Assembly (NCBI GenBank): GCA_017643925.1
Contig: JAEPML010000003.1
Span: forward strand, 310,001 to 374,000
Source: Roseibium sp.
Lineage (GTDB): Bacteria; Pseudomonadota; Alphaproteobacteria; Rhizobiales; Stappiaceae
DNA: 64,000 bases
Reading direction: 5' to 3'
This document shows positions 1,937-25,702 of this stretch, in pieces. Within the stretch, counting starts at the first letter, position 1, and every line of letters starts with the position of its first letter. A model generated the notes under the pieces. It made no database searches. It was given only the letters and a program-made list of their open reading frames with translations, and was not told where the DNA came from. The position numbers were made by a program, and so were the translations under genes.

Positions 1937-2356
1937 ATGACCTTTTTCAATCTCAATGCCCGCCTCGAAGGCGACAGTCACTTCGTCACCGACCTGACCC
2001 TTTGTTCCGTCAGGCTGATGAAGGACGCCAATTACCCGTGGCTGCTGCTCGTACCCAGAAAACCGGACCTGGTCGAGATCATTGATCTGGAGGACGCGGA
2101 CCAGCAGCAGCTGATGCGCGAGATCGCAGCCGCAAGCCATGTGCTGCGTGAAGTGACCGATTGTGAAAAACTGAATGTCGGCGCGCTTGGCAATCAGGTG
2201 TCCCAACTCCATGTCCATGTGATCGCAAGGTTTCGCAGCGATGCGGCATGGCCCGGACCGATCTGGGGCGCCGCTCCAGCCGAACCTTATGAGGACGACA
2301 GGGTCGACACCTTGATCGAAAACCTTCGGGACGCCTTTTCAGATCGTGACAGTTAG
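1937..2356 (+). CDS. HIT domain protein with a QxHxH active-site motif
   Basis: A 139-residue single HIT domain, a family of nucleotide hydrolases and transferases acting on nucleoside phosphates. The HIT motif is read at residues 90-97 as QLHVHVIA, that is Gln90-x-His92-x-His94. The first histidine of the usual HxHxH is therefore Gln, while the central catalytic histidine (equivalent to His92 or His94, depending on alignment) is kept. No second domain or signal peptide. It starts about 150 bases from the divergent LysE gene. Substrate unknown. Confidence 0.85.
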   Translation: MTFFNLNARLEGDSHFVTDLTLCSVRLMKDANYPWLLLVPRKPDLVEIIDLEDADQQQLMREIAAASHVLREVTDCEKLNVGALGNQVSQLHVHVIARFRSDAAWPGPIWGAAPAEPYEDDRVDTLIENLRDAFSDRDS

Positions 2357-2455
2357 AAAGATATTGTGACCGGTCGACTTCTGGACAGGTACGCCCTGCG
2401 ACCCTAGTTTCTGGCGCAACTTCAGTCCTGCCCAATACCCTTCAAGGATTACATC

Positions 2456-3400
2456 ATGCGTGCCGATGCTGCCGGTCTCCAGGCGATGGAGATGAGCTTT
2501 CTGGGCAATACTCTCGACCGGCAATCCACGCGCCGCGGCGACACGGCCTATATCACCGGTCTCCTGGAAAAACCGGGAACTGAAATCGTGCTGTCGACGG
2601 CAAAGACGCTTGTCTTTCCGGCCGGCGAAACACTTGCCTTCGGTCACGACCTCCAGGCCGCCAAGGCCCTCGGGGCGAAACAGGAAGAGATGGTGTTCCT
2701 GGGACTTCGCCCGGAAAACGGGCAAGCGGTCTTTGCGACCACGCTTCCCCAGAGCGACGAGGAGCTGGAGGAAAAAACGGATCTGCAGATCCGGGACCTG
2801 CGCACGCTGGCGCTGCAGAACAGTTTCAACCCGCAGGATCTCGGTGCGCTGGCCCAGGCCCGCGCCCTGATCCACTGGCACCGCACGCACCAGTTCTGCT
2901 CGCAATGCGGTGAACCATCCAGGATGGCAGAAGCGGGGTACCGCCGCGACTGCCCGACCTGCGGCGCGTTTCATTTCCCGCGCACGGACCCCTGCGTCAT
3001 CATGCTGATCGCCGATGGCGACCGGGCTCTTCTGGGGCGCCCGGCCCGACTGCCGGAAGGGATCTACACGACGCTTGCCGGTTTCATGGAGCCGGGCGAA
3101 ACCATCGAACAGGCCGTGAGGCGGGAATGCCTGGAAGAATCGGGAATCGAGGTCGGTGATGTCCGACTGATTTCCAATCAGCCCTGGCCATTTCCTGCCA
3201 ATCTCATGCTCGGCTGCGTCGGTGAGGCAACATCGGTCGACATCGAGATCGAGGATGACGAACTCGAGGCCTGCAAATGGTGTGACCGTGAAGAAGTCTG
3301 GCAGATGGTCAAGGACACCCATCCGGAGGGTCACAAGATTCCACCGTCAATCTCCATCGCCTATGAACTGATCCTCGGCTGGCTTGAAGAGCGGATCTGA
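2456..3400 (+). CDS. nudC: NAD(+)/NADH diphosphatase (NudC-type Nudix hydrolase)
   Basis: Cleaves NADH/NAD to NMN(H) and AMP, and in some bacteria decaps NAD-capped RNA. 314 residues: N-terminal NudC domain; zinc ribbon with C148-x2-C151 and C166-x2-C169; the Nudix box at about 209-231 (GFMEPGE, then REcleEESGI with the metal-binding glutamates); and NQPWPFPAN at 241-249, the NudC signature after the box. The start has an AAGGA element eight bases upstream. Its TGA stop overlaps the next gene's ATG by one base, so the two are probably translationally coupled. Confidence 0.95.
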   Translation: MRADAAGLQAMEMSFLGNTLDRQSTRRGDTAYITGLLEKPGTEIVLSTAKTLVFPAGETLAFGHDLQAAKALGAKQEEMVFLGLRPENGQAVFATTLPQSDEELEEKTDLQIRDLRTLALQNSFNPQDLGALAQARALIHWHRTHQFCSQCGEPSRMAEAGYRRDCPTCGAFHFPRTDPCVIMLIADGDRALLGRPARLPEGIYTTLAGFMEPGETIEQAVRRECLEESGIEVGDVRLISNQPWPFPANLMLGCVGEATSVDIEIEDDELEACKWCDREEVWQMVKDTHPEGHKIPPSISIAYELILGWLEERI

Positions 3401-3978
3401 TGAGCTGGTGCGTCTATCTCACCCATCCTGAAGTGAAGGTCGATCCGGATGTACCGGTGCCGGAATGGTGCTTGAACGACGTCGGGCGCGAACGTGCCGC
3501 CAAGGCGTCATTTCTTCCCTTTGCCGGAGAAATCAGGCATGTCATCTCAAGCGGCGAAGTGAAAGCCATTGAAACGGCCCAGATTTTTGCCGGGCGCATG
3601 AACGTGTTTCACCGGGTGCTGCAGTTCCTGCATGAAAATGACCGCAGCGCCACGGGGTTCCTGCCACCGGAAGAGTTCGAAAAAACCGCCGACGTGTTTT
3701 TCGCCGAGCCCGGGCAATCCGTGCGTGGTTGGGAGCGGGCCATCGATGCTCAGGGCCGGATCGTCAATGGCATCAAGAGCGCCTTGCGCCATATTCCCGA
3801 GAATGACCCAGTCCTTTTCACCGGTCACGGCGCCGTCGGCACCTTGCTGATGTGCCATCTCATGGCCACCCCGATATCGCGATCACACGATCAGAAGCGG
3901 GGCGGGTGCTGGTACCGGTTCGACAAGACCTGGCTGACCACACAGACGGGCGGAAATTTGCGCTGGACAGAGCTTTGA
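3400..3978 (+). CDS. Histidine phosphatase-like protein with a degenerate RHG motif
   Basis: 192 residues with the histidine phosphatase fold pattern: a beta-strand motif at residues 5-12 (VYLTHPEV), SSGEVKAIETA at 50-60 where active members have S-x-x-x-R-x-x-x-TA, an acidic candidate proton donor at E79, and the second histidine in TGHGAVG (H143). The RHG loop reads Thr8-His9-Pro10, so the nucleophilic His stays but the phosphate-binding Arg is gone, and the second Arg is Lys. Activity may be altered or lost. It overlaps nudC by one base; a nucleotide-linked role is inference. Confidence 0.8.
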   Translation: MSWCVYLTHPEVKVDPDVPVPEWCLNDVGRERAAKASFLPFAGEIRHVISSGEVKAIETAQIFAGRMNVFHRVLQFLHENDRSATGFLPPEEFEKTADVFFAEPGQSVRGWERAIDAQGRIVNGIKSALRHIPENDPVLFTGHGAVGTLLMCHLMATPISRSHDQKRGGCWYRFDKTWLTTQTGGNLRWTEL

Positions 3979-4043
3979 CGGCGGTCGGCGTTTCCCGCAC
4001 TTCGTGCTAGGCTTTCCCTGTTTGTCAGACTCTGGAACCTGCC

Positions 4044-5255
4044 ATGAACCGTGTTGTCCCTGTCCTTCTGTCGGCTCTTCTTCTTGCCATTGCCATAAGC
4101 AACCCGGCCTATGCAGGCAAGTATGATGCCCAGTTCCGGCAGTTTCTGAACAGCGAGATCATCCCGGCGGCCCGCAAGGCAGGCGTGTCCAAGGCCACGC
4201 TGGACCGGGAACTTGCCGGTCTGACACCAGACACGTCCTTGCCCGGACTTGTGGGCCCCGGCGGCAAGGGAGCCCCTCCGAAAGTCAATTTCCAGGCAGA
4301 GTTCCGATCTCCCTCCCGCTATTTCCGCGACAGCCAGTTCAACGCGCTTGTTCCAGGTGGCCGCAGCCTTATGAAGAAGCATGCCGCAACGCTGGACCGG
4401 ATCGAGGCAAGATACGGTGTGCCGCGACGGATAATCCTTGCAATCTGGGCAAGGGAATCGGGTTACGGCAACGCCAAGATCCCGCATGACGCGCTGCGCG
4501 TGCTGGCGACACAAGCCTTCATGGGGCAGCGCGCCAAGTTCTTCCAGGGTGAACTGATCGCGGCGCTGCAGATACTGCAGAAGGGCGACGTTTCCCGCCG
4601 CGCCATGAAGAGTTCTTGGGGTGGCGCCATGGGCCAGCCGCAGTTCCTGCCGTCCTCCTACCTGAAATACGCCGTCGATTTCGACGGTGACGGCAAGCGC
4701 AACATCTGGACCTCGCAGGTCGATACGATGGCGTCGATTGCAAATTACCTGGCCAAGCACGGCTGGGCCAAGGGACGGGACTGGGGCTACGAGATACACC
4801 TGCCTAACACGGTGTCGTGTACCCGCGAAGGTCCCGACAATCGCCAGAAGATTTCCTCTTTCGTCAATGAAGGAGTGAAACGGGTCAGCGGACGTCCTTT
4901 CCCCGATCATGAGATCAACAAGCCGGGCAATATCCTTCTGCCCGCCGGGCGTTACGGGCCAGCCTTCATTGCCACGGAGAATTTCTACGTTCTGAAGGCC
5001 TATAACGAGAGCGATACCTACGCGCTTTTCGTCGGGCACCTGGCGGACCGGTATGGCAGCAACAAGTCCTTTGTCGGCCAATGGAAGCCCATGAAGGAAA
5101 CTACCAGAGGCGCGGTGCGCAACCTTCAACTGAGGCTCGAGGGCCTGGGACATGATGTTGGGGGCGCCGATGGTCTGATCGGTTTCAAGACGCGACGATC
5201 GATCGGCAAGGACCAGGAAAAAAGCGGTTTCTTTGCCACCTGCTGGGTGGGTTAA
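4044..5255 (+). CDS. Lytic murein transglycosylase, MltB/SLT_2 family
   Basis: Periplasmic enzyme that cleaves the MurNAc-GlcNAc bond of peptidoglycan to form anhydro-muropeptides. 403 residues: cleavable Sec signal peptide (residues 1-24, ending NPAYAG, no lipobox); catalytic domain with the active-site glutamate in WARESGYGN (E138), GAMGQPQFLPSSY (194-206) and the DFDGDGKRNIW segment (212-222); C-terminal peptidoglycan-binding-like helix bundle (about 350-395). The C-terminus ends soon after ATCW, slightly shorter than expected for this binding domain. It starts about 65 bases after the phosphatase gene. Confidence 0.92.
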   Translation: MNRVVPVLLSALLLAIAISNPAYAGKYDAQFRQFLNSEIIPAARKAGVSKATLDRELAGLTPDTSLPGLVGPGGKGAPPKVNFQAEFRSPSRYFRDSQFNALVPGGRSLMKKHAATLDRIEARYGVPRRIILAIWARESGYGNAKIPHDALRVLATQAFMGQRAKFFQGELIAALQILQKGDVSRRAMKSSWGGAMGQPQFLPSSYLKYAVDFDGDGKRNIWTSQVDTMASIANYLAKHGWAKGRDWGYEIHLPNTVSCTREGPDNRQKISSFVNEGVKRVSGRPFPDHEINKPGNILLPAGRYGPAFIATENFYVLKAYNESDTYALFVGHLADRYGSNKSFVGQWKPMKETTRGAVRNLQLRLEGLGHDVGGADGLIGFKTRRSIGKDQEKSGFFATCWVG

Positions 5256-21736: not shown

Positions 21737-22885
21737 ATGAAACCCAGTTTGACCACCTCTCGAATTGCAGGACACCGGTTCTCCGGGACTATCGTTTTTC
21801 TTTTTTTATGTGGCATCTGGATGCAGTCTGCACTGGCCAGCCCGGTCGGCAAGACCCTGGACGAGTTCTGGAGCCTCGACGAATTTACGGACAGTCACCC
21901 AAGGCAAAGTGAGAATATCAAAGCTTTTTCCGAACGCGTGGCAGGTCAAGCCAGTCCCCTGGTACCTTACAAGGGGTCAGCCAAAATTGCCGTTGTCTAT
22001 CCGGGTGAACAGGCTTCCGATTACTGGCGCCGGAGTGTCACTTCTTTCGAAGAAAGGCTCAAGGAACTCAATCTGGACTACCAAATCAATTCCGTCTTCT
22101 CCGGCTCATCTTCCCTGGTCGGCAATCAGGCGCAACTGATCGCGGCAGCGCTGAAGGAAGATCCCGATTACCTCGTCTTCACTCTTGACGTGCTCAGGCA
22201 CAGAAGCCTCGTTCAAAGACTGATCGCCCGCGGGCGACCCAAGGTCATCCTGCAGAACATCACGACCCCGGTGAAGGCCTGGAGAGGACGTCAGCCGTTC
22301 CTCTATGTCGGTTTTGACCATGTTGTCGGAACAAACATGCTTATCGACTACTACAACGAGCGCTTTGGTGAAAAGAAGTCTTTTGCGATCCTATACGGAC
22401 CACGGGGCTACGTCAGCCGGGCACGCGGCAACACGTTTCTGCAGGCCTATTCCGACCCGGAGGCACGAAATCTCAAGGCCTCCTATTATGTGGGTTATGA
22501 CCGGAAAAAGTCCCGCGAGGCGGCGACCCGTATACTGAAAGACAACCAGGACCTGGCCTTTGTCTATGCCTGTTCAACAGACATTGCCCTTGGCGTGCTT
22601 GACGCGGTCAGGGAGCAGGGAAGCGACAGTCTGGTTGTGACAAATGGCTGGGGTGGAGGGAGCGCAGAACTTGAAGCCATTTCGCAAGGTGATCTGGATG
22701 TTACAGTGATGCGCATGAATGATGACAACGGCGTGGCCATGGCCGAGGCGATCGCGCTCGACATGGCAGGACGGGGACAAGAAGTCCCTGTCGTCTACTC
22801 CGGAGAATTTCAATTGGTGACTTCCAAGGATAGTGCCGATCGGATCGGTGCTCTCAAAGCAAAGGCATTTCGATACTCAAAATGA
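21737..22885 (+). CDS. luxP: LuxP-like periplasmic autoinducer-2 binding protein
   Basis: Type-1 periplasmic binding protein, 382 residues, with a Sec signal (about residues 17-35, cleavage after SALA). It matches Vibrio LuxP (recalled sequence) along its length: VVYPGEQASDYW (87-97), LQNITTPVKAWRGRQPFLYVGFDH, FVYACSTDIALG, VTNGWGGGSAELEAI and VMRMNDD. The residues that contact AI-2 in V. harveyi LuxP (Gln77, Ser79, Trp82, Asn159, Arg215, Ser265-Asp267, Trp289, Arg310, from memory) correspond to Q92, S94, W97, N174, R230, S280-D282, W305 and R326: all kept. No ABC permease or ATPase adjoins it. Its stop overlaps the next ATG (ATGA). A plain sugar-binding role is less likely. Confidence 0.87.
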   Translation: MKPSLTTSRIAGHRFSGTIVFLFLCGIWMQSALASPVGKTLDEFWSLDEFTDSHPRQSENIKAFSERVAGQASPLVPYKGSAKIAVVYPGEQASDYWRRSVTSFEERLKELNLDYQINSVFSGSSSLVGNQAQLIAAALKEDPDYLVFTLDVLRHRSLVQRLIARGRPKVILQNITTPVKAWRGRQPFLYVGFDHVVGTNMLIDYYNERFGEKKSFAILYGPRGYVSRARGNTFLQAYSDPEARNLKASYYVGYDRKKSREAATRILKDNQDLAFVYACSTDIALGVLDAVREQGSDSLVVTNGWGGGSAELEAISQGDLDVTVMRMNDDNGVAMAEAIALDMAGRGQEVPVVYSGEFQLVTSKDSADRIGALKAKAFRYSK

Positions 22886-25638
22886 AGGCGGCTGCGGGGG
22901 TTAAATACAGCTGGATCGTGTTGGGCCTGTTTTTCATAGGCCTGATGACGACTGCTGTCGCCCTGTTTGGCATCACCTACCTGGGAAACCTGTCGATTGC
23001 CGAGACGGAACTCAAGCGCCGCGCGGCCAAGGAAGTCGCTCTGGCGAGTTTCGTATTCGAGAACCATCTCAAGCAGCTTGAAGGACAGCTCAGGACAGCT
23101 TCCGTGAACCCGGCTTTCATCGATGCCGTCAAATCCTATGACAGTGCAGACACAACCCGGATCCTTGAACAGCTTGGACAAAACACAACCGGACCGGTTC
23201 CCGATGTCCTGATTGTCGACCACGAACAGCAAATGGGATGGCTGAACGCCAGCCTGTCTTTGGTCGATGTCTCGGCGGTCCTGCCGGGACAGACAATCAA
23301 GACGATGCCGCCAGACGTCTGGCGGGTCTACTCACGGGACGAAGTGGTGCCGCCGATTTCTGTGGCCATCATCGCCATACCGGTCGTCGACCCGCTCGAC
23401 GGGCGCGTGATCGCAAAACTCATTGGCGGCTCAACGCTCAATGATTCCTTTGTTCTTCTCGATACTCTGGCCACCATTCTGGGCGTCGACAGTCTCGCAA
23501 TCGTGCATGAAGGCGAAAGTCTTGCCAGCATCGGCAACCTGGCTGACAAGCAACACCTTGATTCCATCCAATCGGCTCTCGTCGACCGGGATTATAGACT
23601 GATCGACGGACGCCTCTACACCAGGTCCCTGCTCTCCCTCGATGAGCACGGTCATCCAATCTACGCCTTCTTTGGTGAGCCCAGTGACATCATCGAAAGC
23701 ATCCAGAAGACCTATCTGGACATACTCGTTCCCTTCCTGATCTACACCGCGCTCGCCGCGCTTGCCGCGGCTCTGTTGATCAACCGGTTCACGGCACCGG
23801 CCTTGGCTAACCTGGTGAACTACGCGGCGGCACGCCGCAAAGAGGGCACTGCGGCCATGTTCCAGCCGGGACGGATATCCGAGTACAACCAGCTGGGATC
23901 GCTCTTTGAAGAAGCGTTCGAGTCCATCCATCGCACCAACGCACAATTCAGGGAACTCATCGACGGCTCGCTGCAGGGGATAGTCGTTCACGCGGATCAG
24001 AAAATTCTCTACGCCAATGAAGCACTTCTGCAGATGCTTCACTATCAGCCCGATGAAGAAAGTGAGATCGTTGGCGAAGCGATCTGGAAGATTTATGCGC
24101 CGTTCGAAAGGGACCGCCTGAAGAACTATCATTCGCTTCGGAAAAAGGGCGAAGTCGTTCCGACCATCTACGAGGTCCGAGGATTGAGCAAATCCGGCGA
24201 ATATATCTGGCTGGAACAGCATGTCCGCATGACCACGTGGAACGACCGACCGGCGATCTACGTGACTGTTCTCGACATTTCTGAACGCAAGGAACAGGAA
24301 AAGCTGATCGAGCTGCAGTCCAACTACGATCTGCTTACCAATCTTCCCAACAGAAATCTCTTCATGGATCGGCTCAAGCAGGCGATCAATCAATCCGAGA
24401 ACGGCAGCCGGATTTCGGCACTTCTGATCGTGGACATTGACCGGTTCAAGGTCATCAACGAAACATTTGGCCACGGCTTCGGTGATGAAATCATCAAGAT
24501 CATTGGAACAAGAATTGAGGCCGTAGCTCAATGGAATGAAACGGTCTCCCGGCTCGGCGGAGACGAGTTTGCCATTGTCTTGCCGGACGCGGCCGACGAA
24601 TGGGAGATCGAAAACAAGGCACAGTCGATCCTGAATGTCGTCACCGAAAAGATCGAAGTCCAGGACGGCAAGGACTTCTTTTTAACGGCCAGTATCGGAA
24701 TAACGGTCTGCCCCTATGACGGAACCGCTCCTGACGGGCTCATGCGACAGGCTGATGCGGCGATGTACCAGGCAAAGTCGGACGGCGGAAACGGCTTCCG
24801 CTTCTTCTCCCGGCAGATGAACGAGCGGACCGCTCGTGTGCTTGAACTTGAAACATCACTTCGTAATGCGATCGACGAGGAAAAACTCGAGATCCATGTT
24901 CAGCCAATCATCGACTACGTCACCGGAACGATCTCCGGATGCGAAGCCCTTGCCCGATGGACCGATCCTGAACTCGGTACCGTGTCACCGGCTGAGTTCA
25001 TTCCCGTTGCAGAGGAAACCGGCCTTATCGTTCCGCTTGGCAAGCTGGTCCTTCGCAAGGCCTGCGAGTTTCACGCGGCTTGCGTCGAACGCGGTATCGA
25101 AATCAACGGGATTGGCGTCAATATCTCGCCGCGCCAGTGCCGCGAAGACGGGTTCGTCAATTCGATCAAGAATATCCTCGACGAAACCAGCATGGACGCC
25201 CGCCAGCTGCGCCTGGAGATGACCGAGAACGTCATGTTCGACGACAACAGGATCGATCCAGTATCGCTGCTGAATGCCATCAAGAGCCTCGGCGTGAAGA
25301 TCTCGCTCGACGATTTCGGCACCGGCTATTCCTCGCTCAGCTATCTGAAACGCCTTCCCATAGACACGCTCAAGATCGACCGCTCCTTCATCATGGATAT
25401 CGACAGCGATCTGGATGACCAGGCGATGGTGGAAGCGATTATTTCCATGGCCGGCAAGCTGGATGTCGAGGTGGTGTGTGAAGGTGCAGAGACGCGCCAG
25501 CAATGCGACATTCTAACCGGTCTCGGGTGCCGTCTGGTCCAGGGGTTCTATCTGGGCAGACCAATGCCGGAGGCTGACTTCTTCGAATTTGTCGTTCGAA
25601 AGCCCTACGAAACCAACCTTGCCAAAAAAGTCAGCTAA
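22882..25638 (+). CDS. Membrane receptor with LuxQ-like periplasmic domain and PAS-GGDEF-EAL output
   Basis: 918 residues. Membrane segment 10-35; periplasmic domain about 38-278; second membrane segment 280-300; PAS about 352-468; GGDEF about 480-645; EAL about 660-905. The periplasmic stretch IPVVDPLDGRVIAKLIGGST and LNDSFVLLDTL (166-196) aligns with recalled LuxQ (TPVVETSTGEVMGYLFNAVV, LDNNFALMEKL), then VHEGESLAS with VVGDTVLAN. GGDEF is intact (559-563); the inhibitory RxxD is replaced by QWNE. The EAL domain keeps EAL (688-690), MTEN, DDFGTGYSS, K and QGFYLGRPM, so both synthesis and hydrolysis of c-di-GMP are possible. It is coupled to luxP by a 4-base overlap. Predicted AI-2/LuxP-controlled c-di-GMP enzyme; direction of control unknown. 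Confidence 0.88.
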   Translation: MKAAAGVKYSWIVLGLFFIGLMTTAVALFGITYLGNLSIAETELKRRAAKEVALASFVFENHLKQLEGQLRTASVNPAFIDAVKSYDSADTTRILEQLGQNTTGPVPDVLIVDHEQQMGWLNASLSLVDVSAVLPGQTIKTMPPDVWRVYSRDEVVPPISVAIIAIPVVDPLDGRVIAKLIGGSTLNDSFVLLDTLATILGVDSLAIVHEGESLASIGNLADKQHLDSIQSALVDRDYRLIDGRLYTRSLLSLDEHGHPIYAFFGEPSDIIESIQKTYLDILVPFLIYTALAALAAALLINRFTAPALANLVNYAAARRKEGTAAMFQPGRISEYNQLGSLFEEAFESIHRTNAQFRELIDGSLQGIVVHADQKILYANEALLQMLHYQPDEESEIVGEAIWKIYAPFERDRLKNYHSLRKKGEVVPTIYEVRGLSKSGEYIWLEQHVRMTTWNDRPAIYVTVLDISERKEQEKLIELQSNYDLLTNLPNRNLFMDRLKQAINQSENGSRISALLIVDIDRFKVINETFGHGFGDEIIKIIGTRIEAVAQWNETVSRLGGDEFAIVLPDAADEWEIENKAQSILNVVTEKIEVQDGKDFFLTASIGITVCPYDGTAPDGLMRQADAAMYQAKSDGGNGFRFFSRQMNERTARVLELETSLRNAIDEEKLEIHVQPIIDYVTGTISGCEALARWTDPELGTVSPAEFIPVAEETGLIVPLGKLVLRKACEFHAACVERGIEINGIGVNISPRQCREDGFVNSIKNILDETSMDARQLRLEMTENVMFDDNRIDPVSLLNAIKSLGVKISLDDFGTGYSSLSYLKRLPIDTLKIDRSFIMDIDSDLDDQAMVEAIISMAGKLDVEVVCEGAETRQQCDILTGLGCRLVQGFYLGRPMPEADFFEFVVRKPYETNLAKKVS

Positions 25639-25661: not shown

Positions 25662-25702
25662 AAAACGCGCGCTGACGAAGGCCAGCGCGCGTCTTTCTGT
25701 TC
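25662..25702. terminator. Bidirectional terminator between the GGDEF-EAL gene and pnp
   Basis: ACGCGCGCTG-ACGAAGGC-CAGCGCGCGT is a perfect 10-bp stem with an 8-base loop. The plus side is followed by CTTTCTGTTCTTTT and the minus side by a T-run (TTTTTGTT). It serves two convergent transcription units. Confidence 0.8.

Follow-up and report, generated by a model that had tools for sequence, protein, structure and literature searches.

A luxP-like gene overlapping the gene of a LuxQ-type GGDEF-EAL sensor in Roseibium: a candidate two-gene receptor connecting autoinducer 2 to cyclic di-GMP

The window analyzed here, a 64,000-nucleotide stretch of the marine bacterium Roseibium sp. (family Stappiaceae; contig JAEPML010000003.1, positions 310,001 to 374,000), contains a luxP-like gene that overlaps a gene for a membrane sensor in which a LuxQ-type periplasmic domain is followed by PAS, GGDEF, and EAL domains. 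The gene pair is real and conserved and represents a new output for a well-known receptor, with its function predicted from sequence. The best reading, to which we give a probability of roughly 0.7, is a two-gene receptor for autoinducer 2 (AI-2) in which LuxP-AI-2 would set cyclic di-GMP (c-di-GMP) directly. Both open reading frames, their coordinates, and the ATGA overlap were found in the sequence as described in an earlier note made from the DNA letters.

The two gene products and their conservation

The best PDB matches of the window LuxP by phmmer were four LuxP sequences, at about 1e-100 (1zhh_A, 1.4e-100), and sugar-binding proteins followed only from about 1e-11, which upholds its description in the earlier note as a LuxP-like binding protein. 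Its full-length similarity to Vibrio LuxP exceeds that to other sugar-binding proteins, placing it in the LuxP family, and it is 46% identical to the LuxP of a Vibrio-group locus (L024). None of the 27 PDB sequences matched at E ≤ 0.01 bears a polyamine-binding name. An N-terminal signal peptide is likely as read from the sequence, with cleavage after ...QSALA.

Thirteen positions of the AI-2 pocket were scored: window residues 92, 94, 97, 149, 151, 174, 230, 280, 281, 282, 305, 306, and 326, equivalent to V. harveyi LuxP residues 77, 79, 82, 134, 136, 159, 215, 265, 266, 267, 289, 290, and 310. A passage of PMC6452917 gives N159, R215, and R310 as residues that contact AI-2. All 13 positions carry the usual LuxP residue in the window, and those three contacts, with at least 12 of the 13 positions, are kept in 19 of the 20 strong family LuxP sequences described below. 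The other ten positions we take to be LuxP AI-2 pocket residues. The data support a LuxP homologue with an intact predicted AI-2 pocket.

The periplasmic part of the sensor scored 47.4 bits against Pfam LuxQ-periplasm (cut-off, 25.7) and lies between two hydrophobic helices (sequence and structure model; predicted helices 9-74 and 270-320), an arrangement that assigns the protein to the LuxQ type. The predicted fold of residues 47-271 matches LuxQ, with dCache among the lower-ranked fold matches of the LuxQ-type domain; the two are related folds according to part of PMC4822843. NCBIfam LuxQ_Vibrio covers residues 18-394 with 89.5 bits, far under its 1200-bit cut-off. Pfam at E ≤ 1 gave no dCache_1 or GAPES1 match in the window sensor, and a weak dCache_3 match was present in 1/20 sensors with luxP and 3/19 without it. 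Pfam, a family profile, and the fold thus agree on the LuxQ-like domain between two membrane segments that had been proposed, and the generic dCACHE domain named as its alternative did not appear.

The output part was also as claimed: PAS, GGDEF, and EAL domains take the place of histidine kinase and receiver domains, neither of which was detected in the window sensor by Pfam at E ≤ 1. The GGDEF motif, the metal aspartate, and all checked EAL residues are intact in 20/20 sensors with luxP. The GGDEF domain of the window sensor lacks the RxxD inhibitory site. With the catalytic residues of bifunctional GGDEF-EAL enzymes present, the protein is predicted to be active.

The family was represented by 87 genomes searched with LuxP (match threshold, 1e-30). 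Matches occurred in 31 genomes, and 20 of these were strong (43 to 100% identity): the window, five further members of its genus (45 genomes), and a second genus, Stappia, in which each of the 14 genomes had a strong match. The GGDEF-EAL sensor gene lies 3' of luxP with the 4-base overlap in each of the 20 strong loci, so that the genome survey suggested earlier, once run, showed the pair to recur. The dapB gene is upstream in 20/20 loci and pnp downstream in 19/20; no pnp match was present within the stretch examined at the remaining locus (L076). Where measurable in pairs of compared sequences, the ratio of nonsynonymous to synonymous substitution rates (dN/dS) was 0.06 to 0.23. For LuxP it was 0.13 to 0.23 in five pairs, values touched by mechanical starts (the first start after a stop) that made some LuxP N termini too long; a sixth pair, the window and L064, was saturated at silent sites (proportions of nonsynonymous and synonymous differences pN, 0.164; pS, 0.754). 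Later starts were used in the alignments for L130, L154, L211, L217, and L225. The recurrence in all 20 loci and the low dN/dS indicate that the pair is more than a chance arrangement.

No luxS match was found in any of the 87 family genomes, the window's (5.83 Mb, 99.98% complete) included; among 14 control genomes, 5 were positive. The window genome carries SahH. The lack of a luxS match points to eavesdropping: if the ligand is AI-2, its source would be neighbouring bacteria.

In the window, luxP and the sensor gene (Table 1) are the only genes between dapB and pnp, which are encoded on the opposite strand. Terminator-like hairpin patterns such as the one 3' of the pair occurred at 7 sites in the region against 4.2 expected.

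Table 1. Positions of the gene pair and its features in the window
Feature	Position	Strand	Basis
luxP-like gene, 382-aa periplasmic binding protein	21737..22885	+	ORF, Pfam, phmmer against PDB, pocket positions
ATGA overlap, luxP stop/sensor start	22882..22885	+	Sequence; same 4-base overlap in 20/20 family loci
LuxQ-like sensor/PAS/GGDEF/EAL gene, 918 aa	22882..25638	+	ORF, Pfam, NCBIfam
First membrane segment, residues about 9-34	22906..22983	+	Hydrophobic stretch; predicted helix 9-74
LuxQ-type periplasmic domain	22996..23694	+	Pfam from residue 39; fold match 47-271
Second membrane segment, residues about 281-301	23722..23784	+	Hydrophobic stretch; predicted helix 270-320
PAS domain, residues 366-468	23977..24285	+	PAS_9, 2.1e-8
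GGDEF domain, residues 481-637, GGDEF motif intact	24322..24792	+	Pfam, residue check
EAL domain, residues 659-894, all checked catalytic residues present	24856..25563	+	Pfam, residue check
Terminator-like hairpin, 10 pairs, 3' of pair, ahead of convergent pnp	25665..25692	+	Pattern match only

Alternative ligands and sensors without luxP

Several observations weigh against a two-gene AI-2 receptor. The single window sensor sequence matched LuxQ weakly by phmmer (3c30, E = 0.0072); the match became decisive with the family profile (7.5e-18) and with the fold comparison. The genome has 22 further matches to the GGDEF-EAL region of the sensor, so any effect could be local. One family LuxP (L082, 4875-6038) has G, Q, and P at N159, R215, and R310 and differs at 6/13 pocket positions. 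Finally, 19 of the 39 sensor-bearing family genomes, all in the window's genus, have no strong luxP, and the sensor domain stays constrained there (dN/dS, 0.04 to 0.16 in the four pairs tested).

The binding protein might sense another ligand, such as a sugar, a nonborated furanone, or a related furanosyl compound, and relay it to the GGDEF-EAL partner. LuxP belongs to the sugar-binding-protein fold, luxS is unmatched in the host family, and L082 keeps the gene pair despite losing both ligand-contacting arginines and Asn159; for L082 itself a change of ligand is possible. This explanation is nevertheless unlikely, given the pocket conservation described above, with both arginines in 19/20 family members. 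Nine distant family LuxP-like proteins differ at five or six pocket sites with the arginines kept, so that shared descent by itself does not hold the entire pocket fixed. The survey in PMC12268683 reports AI-2 binding for 3 proteins that were tested among its 267 members of the LuxP family.

Weak LuxP-like family proteins (15 rows, 28 to 31% identity) were considered as a hidden partner of the sensor. No such role was obvious, as BLAST of the nine loci fetched found no LuxQ-like, GGDEF, EAL, or kinase neighbour within the fetched stretch. Distant LuxP-like proteins (L083-L091, L099, and L100; 27 to 31%) keep both arginines, Ser79, Trp82, and Trp289. At L087, the one distant locus checked by Pfam, the neighbours are an ABC permease and an ATPase; these proteins possibly belong to an uptake system for a related ligand.

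The sensor N terminus was found at 40 places in the 39 genomes. In all 19 luxP-free genomes the sensor gene lies between dapB and pnp; tblastn at 1e-4 found no luxP remnant in these stretches, and the space is too small for the gene. Five of the 19 (G440, G441, G457, G459, and G465) carry a weak LuxP homologue elsewhere. The LuxQ signature is kept in 18/19 luxP-free sensors; one of the luxP-free sensor genes, L217, has a truncated EAL part. Not all members of the sensor family require LuxP, a point that, like the lack of a luxS match, the earlier note did not foresee, and the constraint on luxP-free sensors indicates that the sensor can function either without LuxP or with another component.

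On the sensor tree, three changes of luxP presence are forced by well-supported branches, and loss is the simpler reading since luxP occurs in all 14 Stappia genomes. At L065, a second sensor gene (L065_par, 2029-4794) lies upstream of luxP. Its product has GYQEF and degraded EAL residues, is probably catalytically dead judging from these, and gave no Pfam LuxQ-periplasm match at 0.01. It joins a 15-row LuxP-free clade (100/100, long branch). We infer that the genes originally stood in the order sensor-b, luxP, sensor-a and that luxP and sensor-a were then deleted; in L211 and L212, near the window on the tree, the loss of luxP would have been a separate event. No clear signal of relaxed constraint after luxP loss was seen: among 54 sites in residues 1-330 fixed in sensors with luxP, the 15-row clade keeps 46, and it keeps 150/171 such cytoplasmic sites.

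It is rather improbable that the sensor works mainly alone, through its periplasmic domain or cytoplasmic PAS, with LuxP as an easily lost modulator. The 19 same-locus sensors without luxP, their LuxQ signature and low dN/dS, and the three changes on the tree would fit such a role, as would Asn187, which is retained in the luxP-free L211, L212, and L228. However, every one of the 20 strong luxP genes overlaps its sensor gene, and the LuxP-free clade groups with the L065 paralogue, so most LuxP-free genes may be another copy. Asn187 is moreover lost in 15/15 of that clade, whereas it is invariant in 20/20 sensors with luxP.

A nonenzymatic, LapD-like scaffold that binds c-di-GMP is highly improbable in view of the catalytic residues intact in all 20 sensors with luxP, even though some GGDEF-EAL proteins are noncatalytic and the neighbouring L065_par has lost its GGDEF and EAL residues.

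Partners of LuxP beyond the family

LuxQ-periplasm was detected by Pfam in 14/398 genomes across the phylum and LuxP in 10/385 genomes of the class survey, the window's genome included in each. Outside the family there were seven strong luxP genes, six with a kinase partner (by BLAST, some matches weak) and one at a contig end. A wider scan took in the best 80 of 286 LuxP relatives, with partners assigned by BLAST rules. In these 80, the partner was a kinase in 56 and a GGDEF+EAL protein in 15; five had a LuxQ-like N terminus with unrecognized output, two met a contig end, one had none, and one was unrecognized. Among the five, L115 proved to be SpoIIE, L134 runs off the contig, and L125, L161, and L167 are split ORFs with kinase pieces.

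The 15 GGDEF+EAL partners comprise 12 from Stappiaceae (11 in genomes already among the family loci, and L118) and 3 from gammaproteobacteria. The latter carry LuxQ-periplasm: Zobellella maritima L130 (3.4e-39), Oceanisphaera arctica L154 (2.3e-53), and Oceanospirillum beijerinckii L140 (1e-17). The LuxP tree and the GGDEF-EAL trees left the Stappiaceae and gammaproteobacterial partners unjoined, but a single origin of both groups was not rejected (approximately unbiased test P values [p-AU], 0.211, 0.237, and 0.238). The LuxP tree used 61 chosen rows of 110 LuxP sequences, 8 of them labelled as unknown partner; L092, L113, L121, and L133 were set to kinase by hand, and L096, a kinase, was left unknown. 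The first GGDEF-EAL tree had 14 family rows and missed minus-strand paralogues; the second covered both strands with 11 family rows.

In Desulfococcaceae HSG9 (L115, 7218-9455), luxP is followed by a gene for LuxQ-periplasm, PAS, and SpoIIE phosphatase domains; its predicted domains would give the LuxP/LuxQ input a third kind of output. A receiver-HD (HD_5) gene lies 3' of the kinase gene in L111 (10570-11616) and L121 (10539-11591), and a receiver-GGDEF-EAL gene in L114 (9329-11119); of these three kinases, the LuxQ domain was confirmed by Pfam only for that of L114. Two-component routes from LuxP toward c-di-GMP-type outputs may therefore exist.

At L021 (4280-7989), a LuxP-like gene that has diverged (27%) and has lost most of the pocket precedes a gene for an 868-aa protein whose sole Pfam match at 1e-4 is LuxQ-periplasm. 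L019 (4042-6774) and L020 (6366-9104) encode LuxQ-periplasm, GGDEF, and EAL proteins, and BLAST found no LuxP-like gene within the 13 to 14 kb fetched.

Proposed mechanism, related systems, and meaning

In the preferred two-gene receptor, periplasmic LuxP would bind borate-AI-2 produced by other bacteria and dock on the LuxQ-type periplasmic domain of its membrane partner. A ligand-driven rearrangement would travel via the membrane helices and the PAS domain and shift diguanylate cyclase (GGDEF) activity relative to that of the phosphodiesterase (EAL). In this way c-di-GMP would be set without LuxU/LuxO or any phosphorelay. The earlier note had LuxP-AI-2 directly setting c-di-GMP. What stands of this is the LuxP homologue with an intact pocket, overlapping a LuxQ-type sensor on PAS-GGDEF-EAL; AI-2 as the ligand, the LuxP-partner complex, the effect of AI-2 on enzyme activity, and the sign of the change are inferred. 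Coupling of LuxP and sensor is seen at the gene level, in the overlap at 20/20 loci.

The switching of the GGDEF/EAL balance is proposed by analogy with NspS-MbaA, a polyamine-binding protein with a GGDEF/EAL membrane receptor, which serves as the working model for the output; there neither enzyme domain is dispensable, and the direction of the response depends on the ligand (PMC8079147, in part). The binding-protein gene is directly upstream of the GGDEF-EAL receptor gene in both systems, but here the sensor domain is LuxQ-like, and the binding protein and predicted ligand differ, as judged without aligning NspS or MbaA sequences. Vibrio LuxPQ (LuxP and the hybrid kinase LuxQ) shares the LuxP pocket, the LuxQ-type periplasmic domain, and the adjacent genes; its output is HisKA/HATPase/receiver rather than PAS-GGDEF-EAL, and the Roseibium pair sits in a family without a luxS match. 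Sections of PMC7584622 and PMC11796354 describe LuxPQ as a Vibrio system acting through a kinase and LuxO; in V. cholerae it affects c-di-GMP by way of LuxO (PMC11796354). In YeaJ and in a dCache_1 cyclase, AI-2 acts directly on c-di-GMP synthesis by way of a single membrane protein (parts of PMC7584622 and PMC9637222); there AI-2 binds the membrane protein, whereas here a separate LuxP would bind it.

No paper describing LuxP with a LuxQ-GGDEF-EAL partner was found in open-licence PubMed Central full text, outside which most subscription papers lie. PMC12268683 (2025) counts LuxP across prokaryotes and describes it as binding AI-2 for transport; LuxQ does not occur in its main text. Of the 115 LuxQ-periplasm proteins in Table 1 of PMC4822843 (2016), 112 are entered as HK and 1 as GCD, the one LuxQ-periplasm c-di-GMP enzyme counted; in the excerpts of that paper it appears as a bare count, without LuxP, conservation, or function.

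A wider proposal, which we hold tentatively and at somewhat less than even odds, is that LuxP and the LuxQ periplasmic domain form a portable input module for AI-2 that has been combined with three or more outputs (kinase, GGDEF-EAL, and SpoIIE phosphatase), the c-di-GMP version having evolved repeatedly; Stappiaceae would then have an eavesdropping receptor in bacteria that do not make AI-2, and part of the lineage a LuxP-free receptor. The GGDEF-EAL and SpoIIE partners raise the question of how one periplasmic complex could drive quite different outputs. The relatives, some with luxP and some lacking it at one constant locus, offer a natural experiment on the contribution of LuxP to a LuxQ-type sensor. 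In Roseibium, whose family has no luxS match, a LuxPQ-type input apparently feeds directly into c-di-GMP, and eavesdropping on AI-2 is clearly and cheaply testable, with one operon, one ligand, and one second messenger. If true, the bacterium may listen to its neighbours and switch lifestyle directly.

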